From assembly GCA_947625285.1 (NCBI GenBank), contig CANQNS010000002.1:62001-126000 (forward strand): a DNA stretch of 64,000 bases. The letters are read 5' to 3'. Below the pieces are notes generated by a model. The model made no database searches. It worked only from the letters and a program-made list of their open reading frames with translations, and was not told the origin of the DNA. The stretch is from an uncultured Oscillospiraceae bacterium. GTDB lineage: Bacteria > Bacillota > Clostridia > Oscillospirales > Oscillospiraceae. The stretch's first letter is position 1. Each line of letters starts with the position of its first letter. Both the position numbers and the translations under genes were made by a program. Shown piece by piece: positions 6,094 through 33,972 of this stretch.

Positions 6094-9000
6094 CTATGCC
6101 GCAGCGTTGGCATTGATGCGGTCGATGATCCGGCGGATGCCCATCCAGACGGACAGATCTGTGAACACCTCCACGATGCTGCCCTGGTCGGTGAAAGGGG
6201 GCTCCTGCAGAACGGACAGGTCTTTCATCAGCCCGTTGTGGACGATATACTCCACGATTTGGTTGACGAAGTATATCTGCCGGCTGTCCAGACTCGTGCT
6301 TTCCAGGTATTCCGCAAAGGCTGCCTTGGCGGCGCTCATATCCATCCCCACGATTCCCCGGACGAACTCGCCCAGGGGCTTGGAGCCAAACTCCGCCTCA
6401 TAATCCTGGCGCGTGCCCACCTCGCTCCAGAGGATGTCCTCCAACTGTTTCACATCCGCTTCGGTCAGCGGCACATTGCTGCGCAGCTTGGCGATGGCGG
6501 CGTTGTCCAGATGGTGCTGCACATAGTATTCCGCCTTGAAGCGATATCCCTGCAGCTCGTCGCTGTCTAGGTCGGCATCCTTCCAGTCCATGGACAGGAT
6601 CGTATCCTTGATATCTATGTCATAGCGGAGCTTTGAGATCGGGATAAATTTTATCAGATCCCGCAGGCATTGCCGGATGTGCTCAAACTCGTTGATGCCG
6701 GCGTTGTCCAGATAATCCGTGTGCAGAAGCTTGTCGATCAGTTCCGCCTGCATCATGATCGCCGGAATGTTGGCAACGCTTGCCACGGCGGCCGCTTTAT
6801 TCAAAAGGTCGTTGCGGGCGCGGGTGTACTTCTTTCCCGCCAGCCAGGCGAGTTCTATGCTGTACATCAGATAATCGAACCGCAGCGCCTTGGGGTCATC
6901 CCGCTCCGGCTCAATCAGCGGAGCCAGTTCCTGGCCCATGAGCAGCGTGTCCTCATAGGTGAGAACCTGATATTTTTTCGGTTCGGCGTATAGCTCCACA
7001 TATTTCAAATGCTGCCGCACGGCGAAATTCTCCCGGTTTAACTCCCGGACCTTGCCCGCCATATCCTCCACCAGCGAGGCGCGAAAAGCGGTCAGCTCCT
7101 CCGTTTGATAAGCCAGATCCTGCAGCTTAAAGGCGATCTGTGCCTTCAGCTGGAAGATGGAGCCGGACAGGGCGATCATATTGGCGGTGGGCCGGTCTTT
7201 GTTCATGCGGAAGAATTCAAAGTTGCCGCAGAAGTCAAAGATATAGAATTTGCTCTTGTCCTCGCCGTTGATGAGCCCTGGGCACAGCCGGGTGCCCCGG
7301 CCGATCATCTGCCAGAACTTAGCCTTGCTCATGACCTTTTTGAAGAACACCAGATTCAGCACCTCCGGCACGTCGATGCCGGTGTCCAGCATATCCACGG
7401 AGATGGCGATCTGGGGCAGCTTGTCCGGGTCGGAGAACTCGTCGATGGCACTCTGGGAATAGCTGATGTAGTTGTCGATGACCTTGGCAAAGCCGGTCAG
7501 ATGTGGATATTCCCTGCCGAATACCTCCAGTATCTTTTCCGCGTGGGAGTGGTTTTTCGCGAAGATGATGGTCTTGCCGATCTTGTTGCCGTAGTCGATC
7601 CTGAGCCCCTCTGTCATGAGCACATGCAGCACCTGCCGGATGGTGTCCTCGTTGAATATCCACTCGTTGAGGGCGGAGGAAGCGATGCGCTCCGGAAGTT
7701 CGCCGTTCTCGTCCTCGAAGGTATCTTCATAGATCAGCTTGTCCTCCTCGGACAGCTCATCGTATGCGATGCCCTCCTGGATGAACTTCAGCGTGGTCTC
7801 TACCGAGACGAAGTCGACCAAATAACCGTCCCTGACCGCTTGGGCCAGCTCGTAGCCATAGGTGGGTTCGCCGGGGCCCAGATCAAAGACGTTATAGGTA
7901 TTTTTGTCGATCTCATCCTTTGGCGTGGCGGTGAGGCCCACCAGCGGCGCGTCAAAGTATGTAAAGATATCCTTGTATTTGTTATAGATGGAGCGATGGG
8001 CCTCGTCGCATATGACCAGGTCGAAGTGGCCGCAGGTGAACAGCTTTCCTTCCTCGTCCTTGACGGCGTCTATGCAGTTCATCATGGTCTGATAGGTGGA
8101 GAACACACCGTGGGCGGTGTAGTTATCCTTTTCCTCGCAGAGATTCGTTACAGAGAAGTCGGGCAGAAGATTGACAAAGCTGCGTTTGGCCTGGGTGACC
8201 AGGCTGTTGCGGTCGGCCAGGAACAGGACGTTTTTCACCCATCCCTGCTCCAGCAGTACTTTCACCAACGCGATCACCGTCCGGGTCTTGCCGGAGCCTG
8301 TTGCCATAACCAGCAGGGCCTTGCGGCGGTTTTTCCGCCCGAAAGCGTCGCATACCGCCTTGATGGCGCCCTCCTGATAGTAGCGTCCGGCGATGGCCCG
8401 ATCCACTACGATGTTGTTTAAGGACGAGCGCATGGCCTGGAGATTGAATAGCTTTTCCAGATCCCGCTTGGAGAAGACAGCCGCCACCTTCCGTTCGGGA
8501 TATTGGTTATCCACGATGCGTGTCTCAAAGCCGTTGGTGAGGAACACGACAGGCCGGCGGCCCTGGGCCTTCTCGATGATATCCGCGTACAACGACGCCT
8601 GTTGGCGGCCCTTGGACACGTCCACACAGGTGCGCTTGGCCTTGATGATCGCCAGGGCCCGGCTGTCGCTGCCGTAGAGCACATAGTCGGCATAGCCCAC
8701 CTCGCTCCGGTTGGGCATGCCGGGCAGCTCCACCTCGTTCAGCCAGTCCTTGCCCTCGGTCCAGCCCGCGTCGATGAGCATCTCGTCGATGTAGAGCTTG
8801 CGGGTGGCGTATTCGGACAGCTCCAGCGGCTTTGGCACATAGGTCTGCTGCTGCTCTGCTCGGCGGGCGGACAACTCCTCTTTGAGAGCTTTGTTCTCAT
8901 CCATGAGCCGGGCAAGATCGGCTTCGATCTCCGGCAACGCGGGCGGAGGCGTCAGGGGCTCCTGGTCTAGCAGGGCGCGGTCAAAGGTCCCCTCCGTGTA

Positions 9001-25479: not shown

Positions 25480-26145
25480 ATGAGAGGATTGTATGGATAT
25501 GTTCGTGTTTCCAGCAGGGATCAGAATACAGATCGCCAGCAGATCGCGATGTGTGAGTATGGCGTAGCCGACGAGAACGTCTTCATTGATAAGCAATCAG
25601 GGAAAGACTTTAATCGTCCCGCCTATTGCCGACTTGTCCGAAAGTTAAAGCCGGACGACACCCTGGTCATCAAGAGCATCGACCGGCTTGGCCGGAATTA
25701 TGAGGATATTTTGGAGCAGTGGCGGCTTCTTACAAAAAAGAAGTGCGTGGAGATCGTGGTGTTGGACATGCCCCTGCTGGACACAAGGCGGGGCCGCGAC
25801 CTGACGGGGACGCTCATCGCGGACATCGTGCTGCAGCTTTTAAGCTATGTGGCCCAGACGGAGCGGGAGTTCATCCGCCAGCGGCAGGCCGAGGGGATCG
25901 CCGCGGCGAAAGCGCGAGGCGTCCGGTTCGGACGGCGGCCCATGGAGCGCCCAGCGGCGTTTGAGGAGGTCTGCCGTGACTGGGAACAGGGGCTGCTTAC
26001 GGCAAGAAAAGCAGCGGAACGCCTTGGCGTAACGCATAAGACGTTCCTGAAATGGGCATCAAAAGATGTAAATGGTGAAAAAAGTAGAGGTTTGTCCCCA
26101 GTTGAAACCATTGTAGAAGAGACCCGTGGATCGCACTCGCACTAA
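25480..26145 (+). CDS. Serine recombinase/resolvase family protein
   Basis: YGYVRVSSRDQNTDRQ, DTLVIKSIDRLGRNYEDI, C-terminal HTH. Confidence 0.93.
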   Translation: MRGLYGYVRVSSRDQNTDRQQIAMCEYGVADENVFIDKQSGKDFNRPAYCRLVRKLKPDDTLVIKSIDRLGRNYEDILEQWRLLTKKKCVEIVVLDMPLLDTRRGRDLTGTLIADIVLQLLSYVAQTEREFIRQRQAEGIAAAKARGVRFGRRPMERPAAFEEVCRDWEQGLLTARKAAERLGVTHKTFLKWASKDVNGEKSRGLSPVETIVEETRGSHSH

Positions 26146-26392: not shown

Positions 26393-27136
26393 ATGAAAGG
26401 CATTTACTGTTTCGCGGGGCACCGCGTGGAGATCGATTCCATTTTCATGCGGGTCCACGAGCTGTGCGCGCTGTACCGCTCCGACGGGCGTCCAGAATAC
26501 ACAGTGCGGACTACCTGGGACGACATCGGCTATGAACGGGAAAAGTCCGATACGGAGAGCCGTATAGAGGGGCGGGAGCCGCCCCGTCACACGGACGCGT
26601 ATCTGGAAACGCTGGCCGTCTACCGCAAGATCGCGGAGAGCCTGATAGAATACGACATCCTGCTGTTCCACGGTTCCGCCGTGGCGGTGGACGGCGCGTG
26701 TTATCTCTTCGCCGCGAAAAGCGGCACGGGTAAATCCACCCATACCCGCCTATGGCGGGAGCTGCTGGGCGAGCGGGCCGTCATGGTGAACGACGATAAA
26801 CCGCTCCTGGAGATCTCCGGCACAGGCGTCGCCGTCTGGGGGACCCCGTGGGACGGGAAGCACCATTTGAGCCGCAATATCTCCGTTCCTTTGCGGGCGA
26901 TCTGCTTTTTGGAGCAAGGGAAGGAGAATCGCATGAAGGCCATCTCCGCGAAAGAGGGGTGGCCCGCGCTCTGGCGGCAGAGCTACCGGCCGTCTGGACC
27001 GGATAAGCTGAAGCGGACGCTGGCGATGGTAGACAGTCTTTCAACGCGCGCCCGGCTTTACCGGCTGCGCTGCGCCCCGGACATCCAAGCGGCCCGCATG
27101 GCTTATGAGACCATGAGCAAAGGAGGAGCTCTATGA
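26393..27136 (+). CDS. HPr kinase/phosphorylase C-terminal-like kinase (RiPP-cluster associated)
   Basis: Walker A-like FAAKSGTGKSTHTRLW, MVNDDKPLL, WGTPWDGKHHLSRN. Confidence 0.8.
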   Translation: MKGIYCFAGHRVEIDSIFMRVHELCALYRSDGRPEYTVRTTWDDIGYEREKSDTESRIEGREPPRHTDAYLETLAVYRKIAESLIEYDILLFHGSAVAVDGACYLFAAKSGTGKSTHTRLWRELLGERAVMVNDDKPLLEISGTGVAVWGTPWDGKHHLSRNISVPLRAICFLEQGKENRMKAISAKEGWPALWRQSYRPSGPDKLKRTLAMVDSLSTRARLYRLRCAPDIQAARMAYETMSKGGAL

Positions 27137-27387
27137 AACTGAAGGACACATTTATCACTTATAACGCCGCCGGGGAGCATACCACGGTAGCGACGGAGGG
27201 CTTTTCCGGCATAATTCGCAGCAACAAGACGGCCGCGTTTATTATTGAAGCGCTGAAAGGACCCACTACTTTGGAACAGATCGTGGATGCCATGGCCGCA
27301 AAGTACGACGCGCCGCGGGATGTTCTTGAAAAGGATGTTGCGGAAACGCTGGCCCGGCTGCGCTCTATCGGGGCTATCGAGGATTGA
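27133..27387 (+). CDS. PqqD family protein (RiPP recognition element)
   Basis: 84 aa PqqD-like fold sequence; overlaps preceding stop. Confidence 0.85.
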   Translation: MKLKDTFITYNAAGEHTTVATEGFSGIIRSNKTAAFIIEALKGPTTLEQIVDAMAAKYDAPRDVLEKDVAETLARLRSIGAIED

Positions 27388-27914
27388 GCGTCCGCTTTGA
27401 GGAGGTGCTGGCCCGGGACGGGAAGCTGGTCCACACCGGCGTGGGCGACAGTATGCTGCCCATGCTGCGGCCGAAACGGGACCTGGTCATCATAGGGCGG
27501 CCGTCCGGCAGGCTGAAGCGGTACGACGTGGCGCTGTATAAGCGCGGTTCGGGCCAATATGTGCTGCACCGGGTGCTGAAGGCGCGTGGCGACGAATACG
27601 TCCTGTGCGGCGACAACCAGTGGTCGAGGGAGCGCGGCGTCACCGACCGGCAGATCATCGGTGTGCTGACCGCCTTTGTGCGGGACGGAAAAGAGATCCC
27701 GGTGACAGACCCGCGCTACCGGCTGTATGCGCATCTTTGGTGCGACCTGTTCTGGCTGCGGGCGGCGGTCCTGTGGTGCCTGACCCTATTCGGCCGGATC
27801 AAAAGAAAACTCACAAGACGCCATAACAAAACGCCTGGATCGGGCGAGCGTAGTATCTCGTCCGTTCAGAATATAGATCAAGGCATCCTGACCGAAAGGA
27901 GGAAAGAGCCATGA
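27384..27914 (+). CDS. S24/S26 (signal peptidase-like) peptidase
   Basis: Catalytic Ser motif GDSMLPMLRP; GRLKRYDVALYKR; CGDNQ; TTG start overlapping PqqD stop. Confidence 0.8.
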   Translation: MSVRFEEVLARDGKLVHTGVGDSMLPMLRPKRDLVIIGRPSGRLKRYDVALYKRGSGQYVLHRVLKARGDEYVLCGDNQWSRERGVTDRQIIGVLTAFVRDGKEIPVTDPRYRLYAHLWCDLFWLRAAVLWCLTLFGRIKRKLTRRHNKTPGSGERSISSVQNIDQGILTERRKEP

Positions 27915-28051
27915 AGGAAAAGTACACCACCCCCGAGATGGAGATCGTCGACATCGATGAGGAGGACATCATTTTCGCCAGCGAGGGATCTGGGGGCGAA
28001 GAAGAAGAAGGTCTAGGTCCGTGCAGCGTTCAGGGACCGGCAGAAAATTAA
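27911..28051 (+). CDS. Candidate RiPP precursor peptide (46 aa), absent from the ORF track
   Basis: MKEKYTTPEMEIVDIDEEDIIFASEGSGGEEEEGLGPCSVQGPAEN; ATGA overlap with upstream peptidase; RBS AGGAGG; directly precedes radical SAM genes. Confidence 0.75.
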   Translation: MKEKYTTPEMEIVDIDEEDIIFASEGSGGEEEEGLGPCSVQGPAEN

Positions 28052-28069: not shown

Positions 28070-28103
28070 GCGCTGTAAGTGAAGGTTACTTGCAGCGCCT
28101 TTT
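28070..28103 (+). terminator. Hairpin plus T-run between precursor and radical SAM genes (attenuator-like)
   Basis: GCGCTGTAAGT (28070-28080) / ACTTGCAGCGC (28088-28098), then CTTTT. Confidence 0.65.
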
Positions 28104-28134: not shown

Positions 28135-29493
28135 ATGCAGCAGGTCGTCCCGCAGATCCGGCTCGTTCAGAAAATACTGGGAGAACAGAAGATAGACACG
28201 GGTCTTTCTTATCGGATCAGCGCGTACTGTATGCGCGTCGAGCAGCCCGAGGGGCTTTTGCTTTATAATACCCTGACCGGAGAGATCCTCCTGTTGACTG
28301 CCGAGGAGGCGGCAGGATTGGAGAAGATCCCCGGCCGCGTCCCCGCCGCGCTGACGGAGTTGGTCTCACGTCGATTCCTTGTGCCCGAGGAAGCGGACGA
28401 CATGGCTGTCGCGGATCTGGTGCGTCAAATAGCGGAGCGTTTTGGAAAAAAAGAGACCGCTCTGACGGCGTACAGGATCTTCACCACCATGGAATGCAAC
28501 GCCCGGTGTTTTTACTGCTACGAGAGAAGGTGGGAAAAAGACACCATGACGGAGCAGACCGCTCTGGATACGGCAAGATATATCGCGGCGCATTGCGGCG
28601 GCAAGTCGATCCGTCTTCAGTGGTTCGGCGGCGAGCCGCTTGTGAACATAAAAGCCATCGATATCATCACGGACTTCCTGCAACGGCAGGGCTTGAAATA
28701 CCGCTCCACCATGACGAGCAACGGATATCTTTTTGACCGTGCGCTCGTACAGCGGGCAAAAAGCCTATGGAAGCTAAAGAAGGTGCAGATCACGCTGGAC
28801 GGCACGGAGGAGGTCTATAACAAACGCAAAGCGTATGTCGATCCGAAGGGCAGCCCCTATCAGCGCGTTCTCCGTAATATAGATCTTTTGCTGGAGGCAG
28901 GCATCTCGGTCAATGTTCGTCTGAATATGGATGAGAACAACGAGCGGGATCTTTATGAATTGGTGGATATATTGGCGGAGCGGTTTGGAAAAAGGCCGGG
29001 ATTTGGCGTCCATTTGTTGGATATTCGGGGAGATCAGGATGGGATCGGATCACCAAGCGGTGTGGAAGAAACGCGCCGGGTCTACGAGGAAAAGCTCCGG
29101 TCATTGTGGGCGTATGTGGAGAAAAGGGGAATACTGGCCCGTGTGTCACTGAATCGGAGAGTCACCGTCAATTGCTGCAGGGCGGACAACGACAGTTGTA
29201 CTACTGTGACGCCGGACGGGAGGCTGGGCCGGTGTGATGGCTGTGAGGATGACGGCATTTGGGGGAGTATTTACTCCGAGGATGCGGATGAGGAAGCGCT
29301 CCGGCAGTGGCGGGAGCGCTTGCCGGCGGAAGAAGCATGCAGGACCTGCGTCATCTATCCGCAATGCATCCGGCTTAAAAAATGCATGGGCTCTGAGAAC
29401 TGTTTCTCATTAGCGCGGCTGTATCGCGAGAATAGGCTTCGCAGGGCTGTTCTCGCGGCCTACGGGGATTGGAAGACCGCCGGCCGGCCTTGA
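28135..29493 (+). CDS. Radical SAM/SPASM peptide maturase 1
   Basis: CxxxCxxC (ECNARCFYCYE), LQWFGGEPL, SPASM-like Cys-rich C-terminus. Confidence 0.92.
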   Translation: MQQVVPQIRLVQKILGEQKIDTGLSYRISAYCMRVEQPEGLLLYNTLTGEILLLTAEEAAGLEKIPGRVPAALTELVSRRFLVPEEADDMAVADLVRQIAERFGKKETALTAYRIFTTMECNARCFYCYERRWEKDTMTEQTALDTARYIAAHCGGKSIRLQWFGGEPLVNIKAIDIITDFLQRQGLKYRSTMTSNGYLFDRALVQRAKSLWKLKKVQITLDGTEEVYNKRKAYVDPKGSPYQRVLRNIDLLLEAGISVNVRLNMDENNERDLYELVDILAERFGKRPGFGVHLLDIRGDQDGIGSPSGVEETRRVYEEKLRSLWAYVEKRGILARVSLNRRVTVNCCRADNDSCTTVTPDGRLGRCDGCEDDGIWGSIYSEDADEEALRQWRERLPAEEACRTCVIYPQCIRLKKCMGSENCFSLARLYRENRLRRAVLAAYGDWKTAGRP

Positions 29494-29521: not shown

Positions 29522-30886
29522 ATGCGGCAGATCGTTCCGCCGTTTGCTCTGACGCAAAAGATCCTGGGACAACAGAAGACCGGCGCGGGGACCCCGTACC
29601 GGCTGACCGTCCACTGCTTGCGGGCGGAGCGGCCAGAGGGGGTCCTGCTCTATCACACCCTGACGGGGGAGCTGGTCCTGCTGTCCCATGAGGAAGCCCG
29701 GCAGCTTGCGGGGCTCCCCGGCCCCGTCCCCGCCGTGCTGGGGGAGCTTGTCCCCCGCCGGTTCCTGGTCCCCCGGGAGGCGGACGATATGGCCCTGGCG
29801 GACCAGACCCGGGACATCGCCCGGCGTTTCTCAAAGAAGGACGGCGTACTGACGGAGTATCTGATCTTTACCACCACGGCCTGCAACGCCCGGTGTTTCT
29901 ACTGCTTCGAGGCGGGCATCCAAAAAGCGGTCATGTCGGAGGAAACGGCCCGGGCGGCGGGGGCGTACATTGCGGCCCACTGCGGCGGACGGCCGGTCCA
30001 TCTGGTCTGGTACGGAGGCGAGCCCCTGCTGAACGTCAGGGCCATCGACGCCATCACGGGCATCCTCCGGCAGAAGGGCGTGACGTTCCGCTCCCGGATG
30101 GATAGCAACGGGTATCTTTTCGACGCCTCTCTGGCGGCCCGGGCCAAGGCGGACTGGGGGCTGTACCAGGCGCAGATCACCCTGGACGGCACGGAAGACG
30201 TCTACAACCGGCGCAAGGCCTATGTGGATCCCCAGGGCAGCCCCTTTCAGCGGGTGCTCCGGAACATCGACCCGCTGCTGGACGCGGGCATCCGGGTCCT
30301 CGTCCGACTGAACATGGACGAGAACAACGAAAAAGACCTGTACGCGCTGGTGGACCAGTTGGCGGAGCGGTTCGGGGGGCGGCCTGGCTTCTCCATCTAT
30401 TTCCGGGTGTTGCTCGAGAACAGGGGGGTGGAGCCCACCGCCTATACGGAGGAGGAGCGCCGCTCCCTGGCGGAGAAGGCCGGGGCCATGCACGAGTACC
30501 TCGCCGGCAAGGGGCTGCTGCTCAAGTGGTCTCTTCCCCAGGGCCCTACGCTCCGGTCCTGCTGGTCGGACGATGTGAACGCCGCCACCATCACGCCGGA
30601 GGGGCGGCTGGGCCGGTGCGAGTCCCACATCGACAAGGGGCTGTGGGGCAGCGTCTTCTCCGAGGAGCGAAACGAGGCGGTGCTGCGGCAGTGGCGGGAA
30701 CGCCGCCCGCCGGGGGAGTTTTGCCGGACCTGCGCCCTCTATCCCCGGTGCGCCCGGCTGAAAAACTGCGTGATCCACCCGGCGCGCTGCTCCCCCATTG
30801 AGCGGGCGGAAGTGGAGCTTCGGTTCCGGCAGGGCATTTTGAATGCCTACGAGGAGTGGAAAGCGGGCGGCCAGGGAGAGGCATGA
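29522..30886 (+). CDS. Radical SAM/SPASM peptide maturase 2 (paralog of 1)
   Basis: ACNARCFYCFE, LVWYGGEPL; full-length similarity to the upstream gene. Confidence 0.92.
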   Translation: MRQIVPPFALTQKILGQQKTGAGTPYRLTVHCLRAERPEGVLLYHTLTGELVLLSHEEARQLAGLPGPVPAVLGELVPRRFLVPREADDMALADQTRDIARRFSKKDGVLTEYLIFTTTACNARCFYCFEAGIQKAVMSEETARAAGAYIAAHCGGRPVHLVWYGGEPLLNVRAIDAITGILRQKGVTFRSRMDSNGYLFDASLAARAKADWGLYQAQITLDGTEDVYNRRKAYVDPQGSPFQRVLRNIDPLLDAGIRVLVRLNMDENNEKDLYALVDQLAERFGGRPGFSIYFRVLLENRGVEPTAYTEEERRSLAEKAGAMHEYLAGKGLLLKWSLPQGPTLRSCWSDDVNAATITPEGRLGRCESHIDKGLWGSVFSEERNEAVLRQWRERRPPGEFCRTCALYPRCARLKNCVIHPARCSPIERAEVELRFRQGILNAYEEWKAGGQGEA

Positions 30887-32043
30887 TGGCGAAACGGACA
30901 AGCGAGACCCTGTGCCGCCTGCTGGCGGCATGGGTCCACGGCGTTGCCCTGGAGGCGGCGGACATATCGGACTTTGAGGCGCTTTTCCAGACTGCGGACA
31001 GACATCTGTTGTCCGCCGCCGTATGCGCGGCGCTGGAACAGACCGGCCTGATGGGAGACTGCCCTCCCGAGATCGCGAAACGCTTCCGGGAGGCGAAGGC
31101 AAGATCCATCCGCAAGACGATCCTTATGGATGCGGAACGAGGGAAGATCCTCGAAGCGATGGATGAGAAGGGCATCTGGTACGCGCCCTTAAAGGTCGCC
31201 GTCAACACCGTCTATCCTCAGTACGGCACCCGGCGCTTCGCGGACAACGACATCCTTTTTGACGCGGAGCGTTGGCGCGCAGTGCGGGATATCATGGAAA
31301 CGCGGGGCTACAAGGCCGAGAGCGTAGGCAAAGGAGCCAACGATGTCTATTACAAGCCGCCCTATAATTTCGAGATGCACCGAAAGCTGTTCCTGGCGGA
31401 CGGCAGACGTGATTTCCTCTCTGTCTGTGCCGACTACTATGAGGACGTAAAGACGCGGCTGATAAAAGACGAGGATGACCGATGCGGCTATCATTTCAGC
31501 GACGAGGATCTTTACATCTATTTTCTCGCTCATGCCTATAAGCACTATGGCGACAGCGGCACAGGACTGCGCACGCTGCTGGATCTGTACCTGTACCGGC
31601 GCGCCAAACCGGATCTGGACGCGGCGTATATCGCGGAGGAAGTACAAAAGCTGGGTCTGGAAGATTTTGAGGCTGCCAGCCGCACGTTGACGGAGAAGAT
31701 CTTCGGCCCCGCGAGCCCCCCGGCGTTGACGGAGAAGGAGCGGGATATGCTGCGCTGGGTAGCCAGCTCCGGCGCGTACGGCACCACGGCCCACCATATC
31801 GAGGCCGAGCTGCGCAGGCTCCAAAACGGCGACGGCCCCGTGACCGCCCGGACAAAGATGAAATACCTGCTGCGGCGCCTCTTCCCCGAGTGGAGCTGGT
31901 ACAGCGTCAACGCGCCGTTCGTTTATCGCCACCGATGGACCGTGCCGTTTTACTGGGCGTACAGGCTGGGACGGGGCGTGTTCGTAAAAGGACGACGGAA
32001 TCTGCGCGAAGCGGGCATGGTATGCGCACGGCGCGAACGATAA
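30883..32043 (+). CDS. Nucleotidyltransferase family protein (NTP_transf_5-like)
   Basis: LKVAVNTVYPQYGTRRFADNDILFD and downstream NTase-like pattern; ATGA overlap with rSAM2. Confidence 0.75.
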   Translation: MMAKRTSETLCRLLAAWVHGVALEAADISDFEALFQTADRHLLSAAVCAALEQTGLMGDCPPEIAKRFREAKARSIRKTILMDAERGKILEAMDEKGIWYAPLKVAVNTVYPQYGTRRFADNDILFDAERWRAVRDIMETRGYKAESVGKGANDVYYKPPYNFEMHRKLFLADGRRDFLSVCADYYEDVKTRLIKDEDDRCGYHFSDEDLYIYFLAHAYKHYGDSGTGLRTLLDLYLYRRAKPDLDAAYIAEEVQKLGLEDFEAASRTLTEKIFGPASPPALTEKERDMLRWVASSGAYGTTAHHIEAELRRLQNGDGPVTARTKMKYLLRRLFPEWSWYSVNAPFVYRHRWTVPFYWAYRLGRGVFVKGRRNLREAGMVCARRER

Positions 32044-32075: not shown

Positions 32076-33809
32076 ATGTTGAAGGAAATGCTTTCGCTCA
32101 TAGGCCCAAAACGAAGAAACCAGATGCTGGCGCTGGTCCCACTTATGCTGCTGGCCTCCCTGCTGGAGATAGTGGGACTGACGATGGTGGTGTCGGTCTG
32201 CGCTGCCCTGGCGGACAGCGCGGGGGCGGGGGAGAACCCGGTCATGGCGTGGCTGCGGGCCGCGCTGCATATAAGCTCGGAGGCGTCTTTGACGACGGCG
32301 ATCCTTCTCGCGCTGATCGCGCTGTACGCCTTCAAGATACCCTATCTGGCCTGGGAAAACTACATGACGGCGAAATTCATCCGCACCATCCGGCATGAGA
32401 TGTCCACCCAACTATGCCAGCGCATCGTTCACAGCCCGTACCCCTTTTTCACCCGCCACAGCACGGCGGAGGTGCAAAACCTGCTGGGGCAGGACACGCT
32501 CCAATTTACTGCGGGGCTCAGCGCGTATATGCGCATACTCATGGAAGCGCTGGTCGTGCTGGGGATGGGTACCTGCCTGCTGCTGATCGACCCGGCCATG
32601 ACGCTGTTTTTGACCGGCGGGATCGTTTCTCTGACGGTCCTGGTCCGCGTGATCCTTGCCCGGCCGATACGCGAAGCCTCCCAGCGGCAGCGGGACGCGA
32701 ACCGCGGACGCTGGAAATGGCTGCATCACATCGTCGGCGGGATCAAGGACATCAAGACCGGACGCCATGAGGACTATTTCGCGGGGCGCTTTGCCGAGGC
32801 CAGCGCGGAATGCGCACGCTCCGATTACCTGCGGCAGTTTTGGATCAAGCTGCCCACGCTGTGCATCGAGGGCGTCATGGTGTTCACCGTGCTGCTGTAT
32901 ATGCTCTTTTTCGTGCGCACCGGAAGACGGCTGCTGGATTACCTGCCCAGCCTTTCCGCTCTGGCGTGGACGGCGATGCGCCTTTTGCCGGCATTCAGCC
33001 GGATCAACGGCAATCTGACGCAGATAGGCTATGCAAAGGCCTCTGTGGAGGCGATCCGCCGCGTGATGGAGGAAACGGCGGCCCAGCAGGATGCGGCGCG
33101 CGCTCCGCAGACGGACGTGGCCATCAGCACGGGCATCGCGCTGCGGCGGGTATCTTTTTCCTACGAGGGCAGGCCGAACCCTGTATTGCGGGATGTGGAT
33201 ATGGAGATACCGGCGGGCGCGGCAGTGGGGATCATCGGCCCGTCCGGAGCGGGAAAGACCACGCTGCTGGACGTGATTTTGGGCCTGCTGGAGCCCGAGC
33301 GGGGCGAGGTGCTGGTCGATGGGATACCCGTCGGCCAGTGCGCGGAGAGCTATCTGCAAAAGGTGGCCTATGTGCCCCAGGACACGTTTTTGCTGGACGA
33401 CACCGTCCGCAGCAATGTGGCGCTGGGCGAGGGACCGGACGAGGCGGATGACAGCCGCGTATGGGCGGCCCTGAAGCAGTCCGAACTGGACCAGATGGTC
33501 CGGGGGCTTCCCGACGGGCTGGACACATATGTCGGCGAGCGCGGCGTCCGGCTTTCCGGCGGCGAGCGGCAGCGTCTGGGCCTGGCGCGGGCCATGTATC
33601 AGGACCCGGCCCTGATCGTGTTTGACGAGGCGACCTCCTCCCTGGATCTGGAGACAGAGGCCGCTGTGCTGCGATCTGTTTTCCGGCTTCAAGGAAAGAA
33701 AACGCTCGTCATAGTTTCCCACCGCATGACGGCTATCGAGCATTGTAATGTGGTTTATCGTGTTCACGATGGAACTGTTTTTGAGGAAAAATCGGGGTCA
33801 AACTCATAA
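32076..33809 (+). CDS. ABC transporter ATP-binding/permease protein (peptide exporter type)
   Basis: Fused TMD and NBD; GPSGAGKTTLL, LSGGERQRLGLARAMYQDPALIVFDEATSSLD. Confidence 0.93.
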   Translation: MLKEMLSLIGPKRRNQMLALVPLMLLASLLEIVGLTMVVSVCAALADSAGAGENPVMAWLRAALHISSEASLTTAILLALIALYAFKIPYLAWENYMTAKFIRTIRHEMSTQLCQRIVHSPYPFFTRHSTAEVQNLLGQDTLQFTAGLSAYMRILMEALVVLGMGTCLLLIDPAMTLFLTGGIVSLTVLVRVILARPIREASQRQRDANRGRWKWLHHIVGGIKDIKTGRHEDYFAGRFAEASAECARSDYLRQFWIKLPTLCIEGVMVFTVLLYMLFFVRTGRRLLDYLPSLSALAWTAMRLLPAFSRINGNLTQIGYAKASVEAIRRVMEETAAQQDAARAPQTDVAISTGIALRRVSFSYEGRPNPVLRDVDMEIPAGAAVGIIGPSGAGKTTLLDVILGLLEPERGEVLVDGIPVGQCAESYLQKVAYVPQDTFLLDDTVRSNVALGEGPDEADDSRVWAALKQSELDQMVRGLPDGLDTYVGERGVRLSGGERQRLGLARAMYQDPALIVFDEATSSLDLETEAAVLRSVFRLQGKKTLVIVSHRMTAIEHCNVVYRVHDGTVFEEKSGSNS

Positions 33810-33894: not shown

Positions 33895-33972
33895 CTTGTC
33901 GGGGCAGCATCCCCGAACCCCTTTGTACTGTCTTATGAGGGCGCGTCGTGTGACGCGCCCTTTGCTGTTTTT

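Follow-up and report, generated by a model that had tools for sequence, protein, structure and literature searches.

The window, the whole stretch of 64,000 nucleotides that was analysed, carries an operon in which the genes for an HPr-kinase-fold protein, a PqqD protein, an S24/S26-type peptidase, a small precursor peptide, two radical SAM (rSAM)/SPASM enzymes (rSAM1 and rSAM2), an NTP_transf_5 nucleotidyltransferase and an ABC transporter follow each other in this order (Table 1). The start codon of the precursor ORF overlaps the stop codon of the peptidase ORF (ATGA). The sequence-only reading had described this 46-residue ORF with its ATGA start, its good ribosome-binding site and its location before two rSAM genes, all of which are exact in the sequence. 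A resolvase/invertase-family serine recombinase (25480-26145) is encoded directly upstream of the operon and may relate to cluster mobility; the gene upstream of it specifies a large protein in which a YcdB/YcdC domain is repeated (PF16244, 22563-24878). The large plus-strand ORFs past 33809 (o372, o389) were rejected as operon members. The operon was ended at the ABC gene because these ORFs have no family match and their antisense-like composition makes them look like artefacts.

Table 1. Operon features, with positions in the window
Feature	Position	Strand	Basis or remark
HPr-kinase-fold protein (ScmC-like), 247 aa, P-loop AAKSGTGKST and NDDK motif	26393-27136	+	TIGR04249 ScmC E 2.5e-6, below cut-off
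PqqD-family RiPP recognition element, 84 aa	27133-27387	+	Pfam PF05402 E 6.2e-17
S24/S26-type peptidase, SMLP and LHRV motifs	27384-27914	+	PF00717 E 0.042 only
Ribosome-binding site of the precursor, AAAGGAGGAAA	27895-27905	+	sequence; graded strong
Precursor ORF, 46 aa	27911-28051	+	ATG 27911, stop TAA 28049-28051
Leader, residues 1-24, MKEKYTTPEMEIVDIDEEDIIFAS	27911-27982	+	profile match E 4e-10, window excluded from profile
Core, residues 25-46, EGSGGEEEEGLGPCSVQGPAEN, single Cys38	27983-28048	+	variable among relatives
13-bp hairpin followed by CTTTTGG, between precursor and rSAM1	28070-28098	+	whole intergenic fold z -4.1
rSAM/SPASM enzyme 1 (rSAM1), CNARCFYC, N-terminal RRE-like domain	28135-29493	+	PF04055 E 6.3e-16
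rSAM/SPASM enzyme 2 (rSAM2)	29522-30886	+	55% identical to rSAM1; both Fe-S motif sets intact
NTP_transf_5 nucleotidyltransferase	30856-32043	+	PF14907 E 3e-40; true start probably near 30883
ABC transporter, membrane and ATPase domains	32076-33809	+	PF00005, PF00664; ORF opens 31890, ATG 32076 likely start
Terminator-like hairpin at operon end	33937-33962	+	–

The AlphaFold model of the HPr-kinase-fold protein (pLDDT 88.9) matches PEPCK and HPrK/P structures. Both are among the 49 PDB entries that it matches with E of 0.001 or less and, at modest TM-scores, place it in the HPr kinase fold. Of 70 relatives, 69 retain the P-loop and 68 an NDDK-like motif. Relatives of the peptidase keep SMxP in 34 of 44 and HR[VI] in 33 of 44 sequences under a strict regular expression. 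From established knowledge of S26 peptidases, SMLP and LHRV presumably form a Ser-His dyad of the ER/SipW signal-peptidase kind. Judged by sequence, this enzyme is the probable leader peptidase and the ABC transporter the probable exporter.

The hairpin behind the precursor also occurs at locus L183 and in L010, a syntenic operon from another MAG (contig CANQPH010000013.1). It is a probable attenuator and would let the precursor be made in excess over the enzyme. The start of rSAM1 is most likely ATG 28135 and not TTG 28090, since the latter lies inside this strong hairpin.

The leader family and the division of the precursor

At the position equivalent to that of the precursor, L010 encodes MKEKYEAPVVEIIAIDKEDIIFASGGSCGE, preceded by the RBS-like AAAGGAGGAAAAATC. 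DNA similarity between both operons (77%) spans 26594 to 27983 and ends at the first base past leader codon 24, a point that marks the boundary of leader and core. Residues 1-24 are conserved and residues 25-46 variable among relatives, the kind of division for which the sequence-only reading had proposed an alignment. Between the window and L010 leaders, 12 of the 20 base differences fall on codon position 3.

A leader profile was built from 86 relatives at other loci, with the window and its nearest relative, L010, left out. Of the 723 window ORFs of at least 20 residues it matches the precursor alone (Table 1). A second match in the same genome (G000:C13, E 0.01) was discarded as chance; it sits within a 1023-aa frame. 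The Asp of the E-D-I/V-I motif is invariant in the profile (86/86), a Tyr or Phe is found in 85 and the Pro of YxxP in 70 of the 86 leaders. The junction Ser (the Ser24 column) is present in 73 of 74 leader-family peptides, even though the core that follows it varies strongly. This near-invariant residue is a candidate cleavage site or a candidate target of the HPr-kinase-fold protein.

It is extremely improbable that the 46-residue ORF is a chance or degenerate frame and no precursor. The ORF is short and its peptide has no match in Pfam, NCBIfam or PHROGs, but the synteny and DNA similarity with L010, the leader profile and the third-position differences led to the rejection of this reading. 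With a conserved leader, a variable core and adjoining modifying-enzyme genes in several genomes, the features that define a RiPP precursor, the ORF is, as far as sequence comparison goes, a genuine one.

Leader-family peptides occur in 103 of the 394 genomes of a same-order sample, with up to 11 per genome; those relatives that were compared with NCBIfam had leader matches below threshold only. The HPr-kinase-fold protein is encoded in 86 of 295 genomes, and in most cases genes for PqqD and the S26-type peptidase adjoin it. Peptide and kinase occur together in 63 genomes, the peptide only in 8, the kinase only in 17 and neither in 184 (P 1e-36), a count that assumes nested peptide and kinase samples for genomes G151 to G422. 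Many Cys-free leader peptides (e.g. L153, L151, L163, L158, L154, L168, L165) are scattered singly, away from HprK, PqqD, peptidase or rSAM genes, and in several of these the C-terminus is a short Trp/Asp/Glu-rich tail. A single HprK-PqqD-peptidase machine may serve the scattered peptides in trans. At locus L012, a second leader-like ORF (1313-1402) ends right past the leader (MYLEIVNLASDIITASQ) and is perhaps a degenerate precursor beside an intact one.

As a tentative extension, the leader could mark a large undescribed modular RiPP class of gut Clostridia. Such a class would have a common HPrK-fold/PqqD/S26-peptidase machine and many scattered, mostly Cys-free precursors, to which rSAM enzymes and a core Cys are added as a plug-in in some genomes; the kinase might then act on the junction Ser.

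The core cysteine and the radical SAM/SPASM enzymes

Among 102 distinct leader-family peptides, a core Cys is present in all 13 that are linked to an rSAM gene and in none of the 89 others (Fisher P 1e-16), where the relatives are partly dependent, rSAM genes were called by motif and similarity, and 17 of the 89 negatives lie within 1.5 kb of the end of the fetched sequence. The two properties were scored separately, as a Cys after the leader match and as a same-strand rSAM ORF within 4 kb, and their coupling is not built in because the leader model excludes core residues. At loci with HprK, PqqD or the peptidase nearby, the counts are 10 of 10 with and 0 of 15 without an rSAM gene (P 3e-7). 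Two further peptides found by their position upstream of an rSAM gene (L011 and L182) also have a Cys, which brings the rSAM-linked cores to 15 of 15. Genome G036 holds both kinds, one peptide with a Cys and an rSAM gene (L046) and one with neither (L178). The rSAM-positive loci span several families (f1, f20, f23, f26, f40 and f43) and named MAGs.

One locus with Cys cores and no detected rSAM gene (L064) was dropped as an exception, as a more distant rSAM gene (7335-8783) adjoins these cores. A looser CxxxCxxC scan around the 89 negatives gave no convincing missed rSAM maturase. The opposite-strand CNMNCSFCHG protein at L205 looks like an activase and was not retained as one. Locus L044 was left out; its related rSAM gene, with HprK, PqqD and peptidase, lacks an upstream leader peptide and is soon followed by the end of the contig. 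L047 and L141 are truncated by the ends of their contigs.

The sequence-only reading took the peptide for a precursor with leader and core that is tied to both rSAM genes, and the leaders and rSAM genes of the relatives bear this out. It made the absence of homologous peptides beside homologous rSAM genes the point on which the proposal would fall; homologous leaders in fact lie directly upstream of such genes in at least 10 other genomes. The coupling makes Cys38 very probably the substrate of the rSAM enzymes, and it is probably cross-linked by these neighboring enzymes. A single core Cys occurs in five of the 15 rSAM-linked cores (window, L010, L052, L062 and L142) and permits one thioether at most. 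The earlier argument from the single Cys against a multi-thioether peptide holds, but it does not extend to one Cys-dependent modification, which the coupling indicates. The rSAM-linked peptide of L142 (8790-8903, minus strand) has the core EEEEEEWFCVVPPSMQ, in which an acidic run and the single Cys are followed by Pro/Gln; this layout resembles that of the window core, and the L142 leader is shorter.

Both rSAM enzymes contain CNARCFYC and the SPASM cysteines. The model of rSAM1 (pLDDT 76) has its best fold matches in TigE, CteB and SuiB, and CteB is its sole PDB match by sequence. CteB is a thioether-forming enzyme, and the class of its product is now called ranthipeptide. To our knowledge, TigE and SuiB make no thioethers. 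The N-terminal segment of rSAM1 (strands 32-54, then helices) fits an RRE domain, as read from the order of elements in the model. The locus thereby shows the combination by which ranthipeptides are recognized, a core Cys and an rSAM/SPASM enzyme with an RRE-like N-domain, the latter predicted from the order of strands and helices in the model and from CteB and SuiB as matches over the whole chain.

In the enzyme tree, rSAM2 groups with the second rSAM of L010 and rSAM1 falls outside the other three. rSAM1 is 53-55% identical to rSAM2 and the L010 rSAMs, whereas the other operon proteins are 63-82% identical between the window and L010. The rSAM adjoining the precursor has thus diverged or was replaced, as did the core, which suggests that rSAM1 may be the core-specific enzyme.

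Neither rSAM comes close to the cut-off of any named maturase family in NCBIfam. Their best match there is TIGR04463 (E 1.9e-48 with 165 bits for rSAM1 and 2.4e-44 with 152 bits for rSAM2, where the cut-off is 525), while the PapB model reaches 78 of the 340 bits required and the six-Cys SCIFF maturase model 48 of 425. The peptide was filed neither as a ranthipeptide nor as a sactipeptide, because no maturase model is matched at its cut-off and the defining bond is a predicted one.

Proposed maturation and the nature of the bond

The reading that we favor, with fair confidence, is that the ORF encodes the precursor of a single-thioether rSAM RiPP, which would mature by leader binding, modification of Cys38, S26-type cleavage and ABC export. 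Both the free PqqD protein and the rSAM enzymes, the latter by their RRE-like N-domain, would bind the leader with its Y5xxP8 and its E-D-I-I-x-x-S stretch. One or both of the rSAM/SPASM enzymes would then act on Cys38, the sole core Cys, most likely by forming one thioether to a nearby residue. The later steps are drawn from gene content and from lasso clusters that share the accessory genes. The S26-type Ser-His peptidase would cut past Ser24 and the ABC transporter would export the product, which the HPr-kinase-fold protein may phosphorylate and the nucleotidyltransferase may glycosylate. The kinase may target the junction Ser instead of a C-terminal Ser, a target for which there is no support, as only 3 of 102 family peptides end in Ser. 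Against this single-thioether reading, the two rSAM enzymes for one Cys would remain unaccounted for, and the CteB-like sequence would leave the acceptor carbon unfixed.

In the 15 rSAM-linked cores, acidic residues lie three to four positions past a Cys 16 times, against 9.4 expected from shuffles (P 0.008), a weak signal for a spacing picked post hoc. CX2-3(D/E) was rejected as a fixed motif; its enrichment is only weak, and neither the window nor L142 keeps it. The window has CSVQGPAE (CX6E), L010 has CGE (CX1E) and L142 has no acid past its Cys. With PapB, zero to six residues may separate Cys and Asp, and Glu is accepted too (PMC9413430). For PapB-like chemistry, Glu45 would be the best candidate acceptor.

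A sactipeptide, in which the single thioether would go to the alpha-carbon of a residue such as Gly, Pro, Ala or Asn, like the one in sporulation killing factor (SKF), is unlikely. Sactipeptide maturases belong to the same enzyme superfamily, the cores are Gly-rich, and a single sactionine has a precedent in SKF (PMC8172795). The nearest solved enzyme by sequence is nevertheless the ranthipeptide maker CteB, and the acidic spacing leans to Asp/Glu acceptors, neither of which is decisive.

Non-thioether rSAM chemistry is unlikely as well. The enzymes would catalyze epimerization, a C-C or cyclophane bond, or Cys decarboxylation or another oxidation, and the Cys would be needed otherwise, e.g. 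for disulfide or dimer formation. The fold neighbors TigE, SuiB and EpeE catalyze other reactions, and two enzymes per single Cys leave room for a second, Cys-independent reaction. The complete coupling of Cys and rSAM genes, however, is hard to explain unless the Cys is the substrate, and the cores lack a conserved pair of aromatic residues such as cyclophane or streptide chemistry would call for.

Within one leader family, the coupling amounts to a predictive rule, by which a core Cys is expected next to an rSAM gene and nowhere else, and this makes many unlisted small ORFs testable RiPP precursors. With one Cys in a 22-residue core (six residues in L010), the peptide is also a natural minimal substrate for probing two paralogous rSAMs on a single Cys.

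Comparison with known systems

Searches of the open-access literature on TIGR04463, on SynChlorMet and on HPr kinase with PqqD and rSAM gave no description of this system, and by its leader the peptide belongs to a large uncatalogued family. The locus shares with ranthipeptides (PapA/PapB, freyrasin; CteA/CteB, thermocellin) a leader and Cys core beside an RRE-bearing rSAM/SPASM enzyme (the RRE being predicted here), acidic residues near the Cys, and CteB as the nearest solved sequence. It differs in its single Cys, its other leader family, its extra HprK, PqqD, S26 and NTase genes and its rSAMs, which stay below the PapB model cut-off; the bond is here a predicted one. Sactipeptides (SKF, streptosactin, ruminococcin C) likewise combine an rSAM/SPASM maturase with a short Cys-bearing precursor, but leader and enzymes match none at a family cut-off, and the neighboring genes are others. 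For the TIGR04463 rSAM/SPASM RiPP maturases, the likeness is that of best NCBIfam match; both rSAMs remain below the cut-off, and the target peptide is not Cys-rich.

The SynChlorMet cassette, which going by the TIGRFAM model names comprises ScmC (TIGR04249), the PqqD-like ScmD and the rSAMs ScmE and ScmF, likewise pairs an HPr-kinase-like and a PqqD-like protein with two rSAM/SPASM enzymes. The kinase-like protein has its best NCBIfam match in ScmC (27 bits against a cut-off of 125), and the ScmC, ScmE and ScmF models all stay far under their cut-offs (27, 43 and below). The locus differs from this cassette in its additional S26 peptidase, NTase and ABC genes and its other leader.

The kinase of paeninodin uses a C-terminal Ser. 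Lasso clusters of the paeninodin/pseudomycoidin kind share with the locus the YxxP leader, PqqD, an HPr kinase homologue, a nucleotidyltransferase and an ABC transporter (PMC8498205, PMC7533575), and YxxP is a lasso leader motif (PMC12710340). A lasso-type peptide is very improbable all the same and was rejected on gene content: the operon has rSAM enzymes and neither an asparagine-synthetase-like cyclase nor a transglutaminase-like B2 protease, and the precursor offers no C-terminal Ser to a kinase. Under the favored single-thioether reading, the locus would link rSAM chemistry with an HPr-kinase/nucleotidyltransferase tailoring so far known from lasso peptides.
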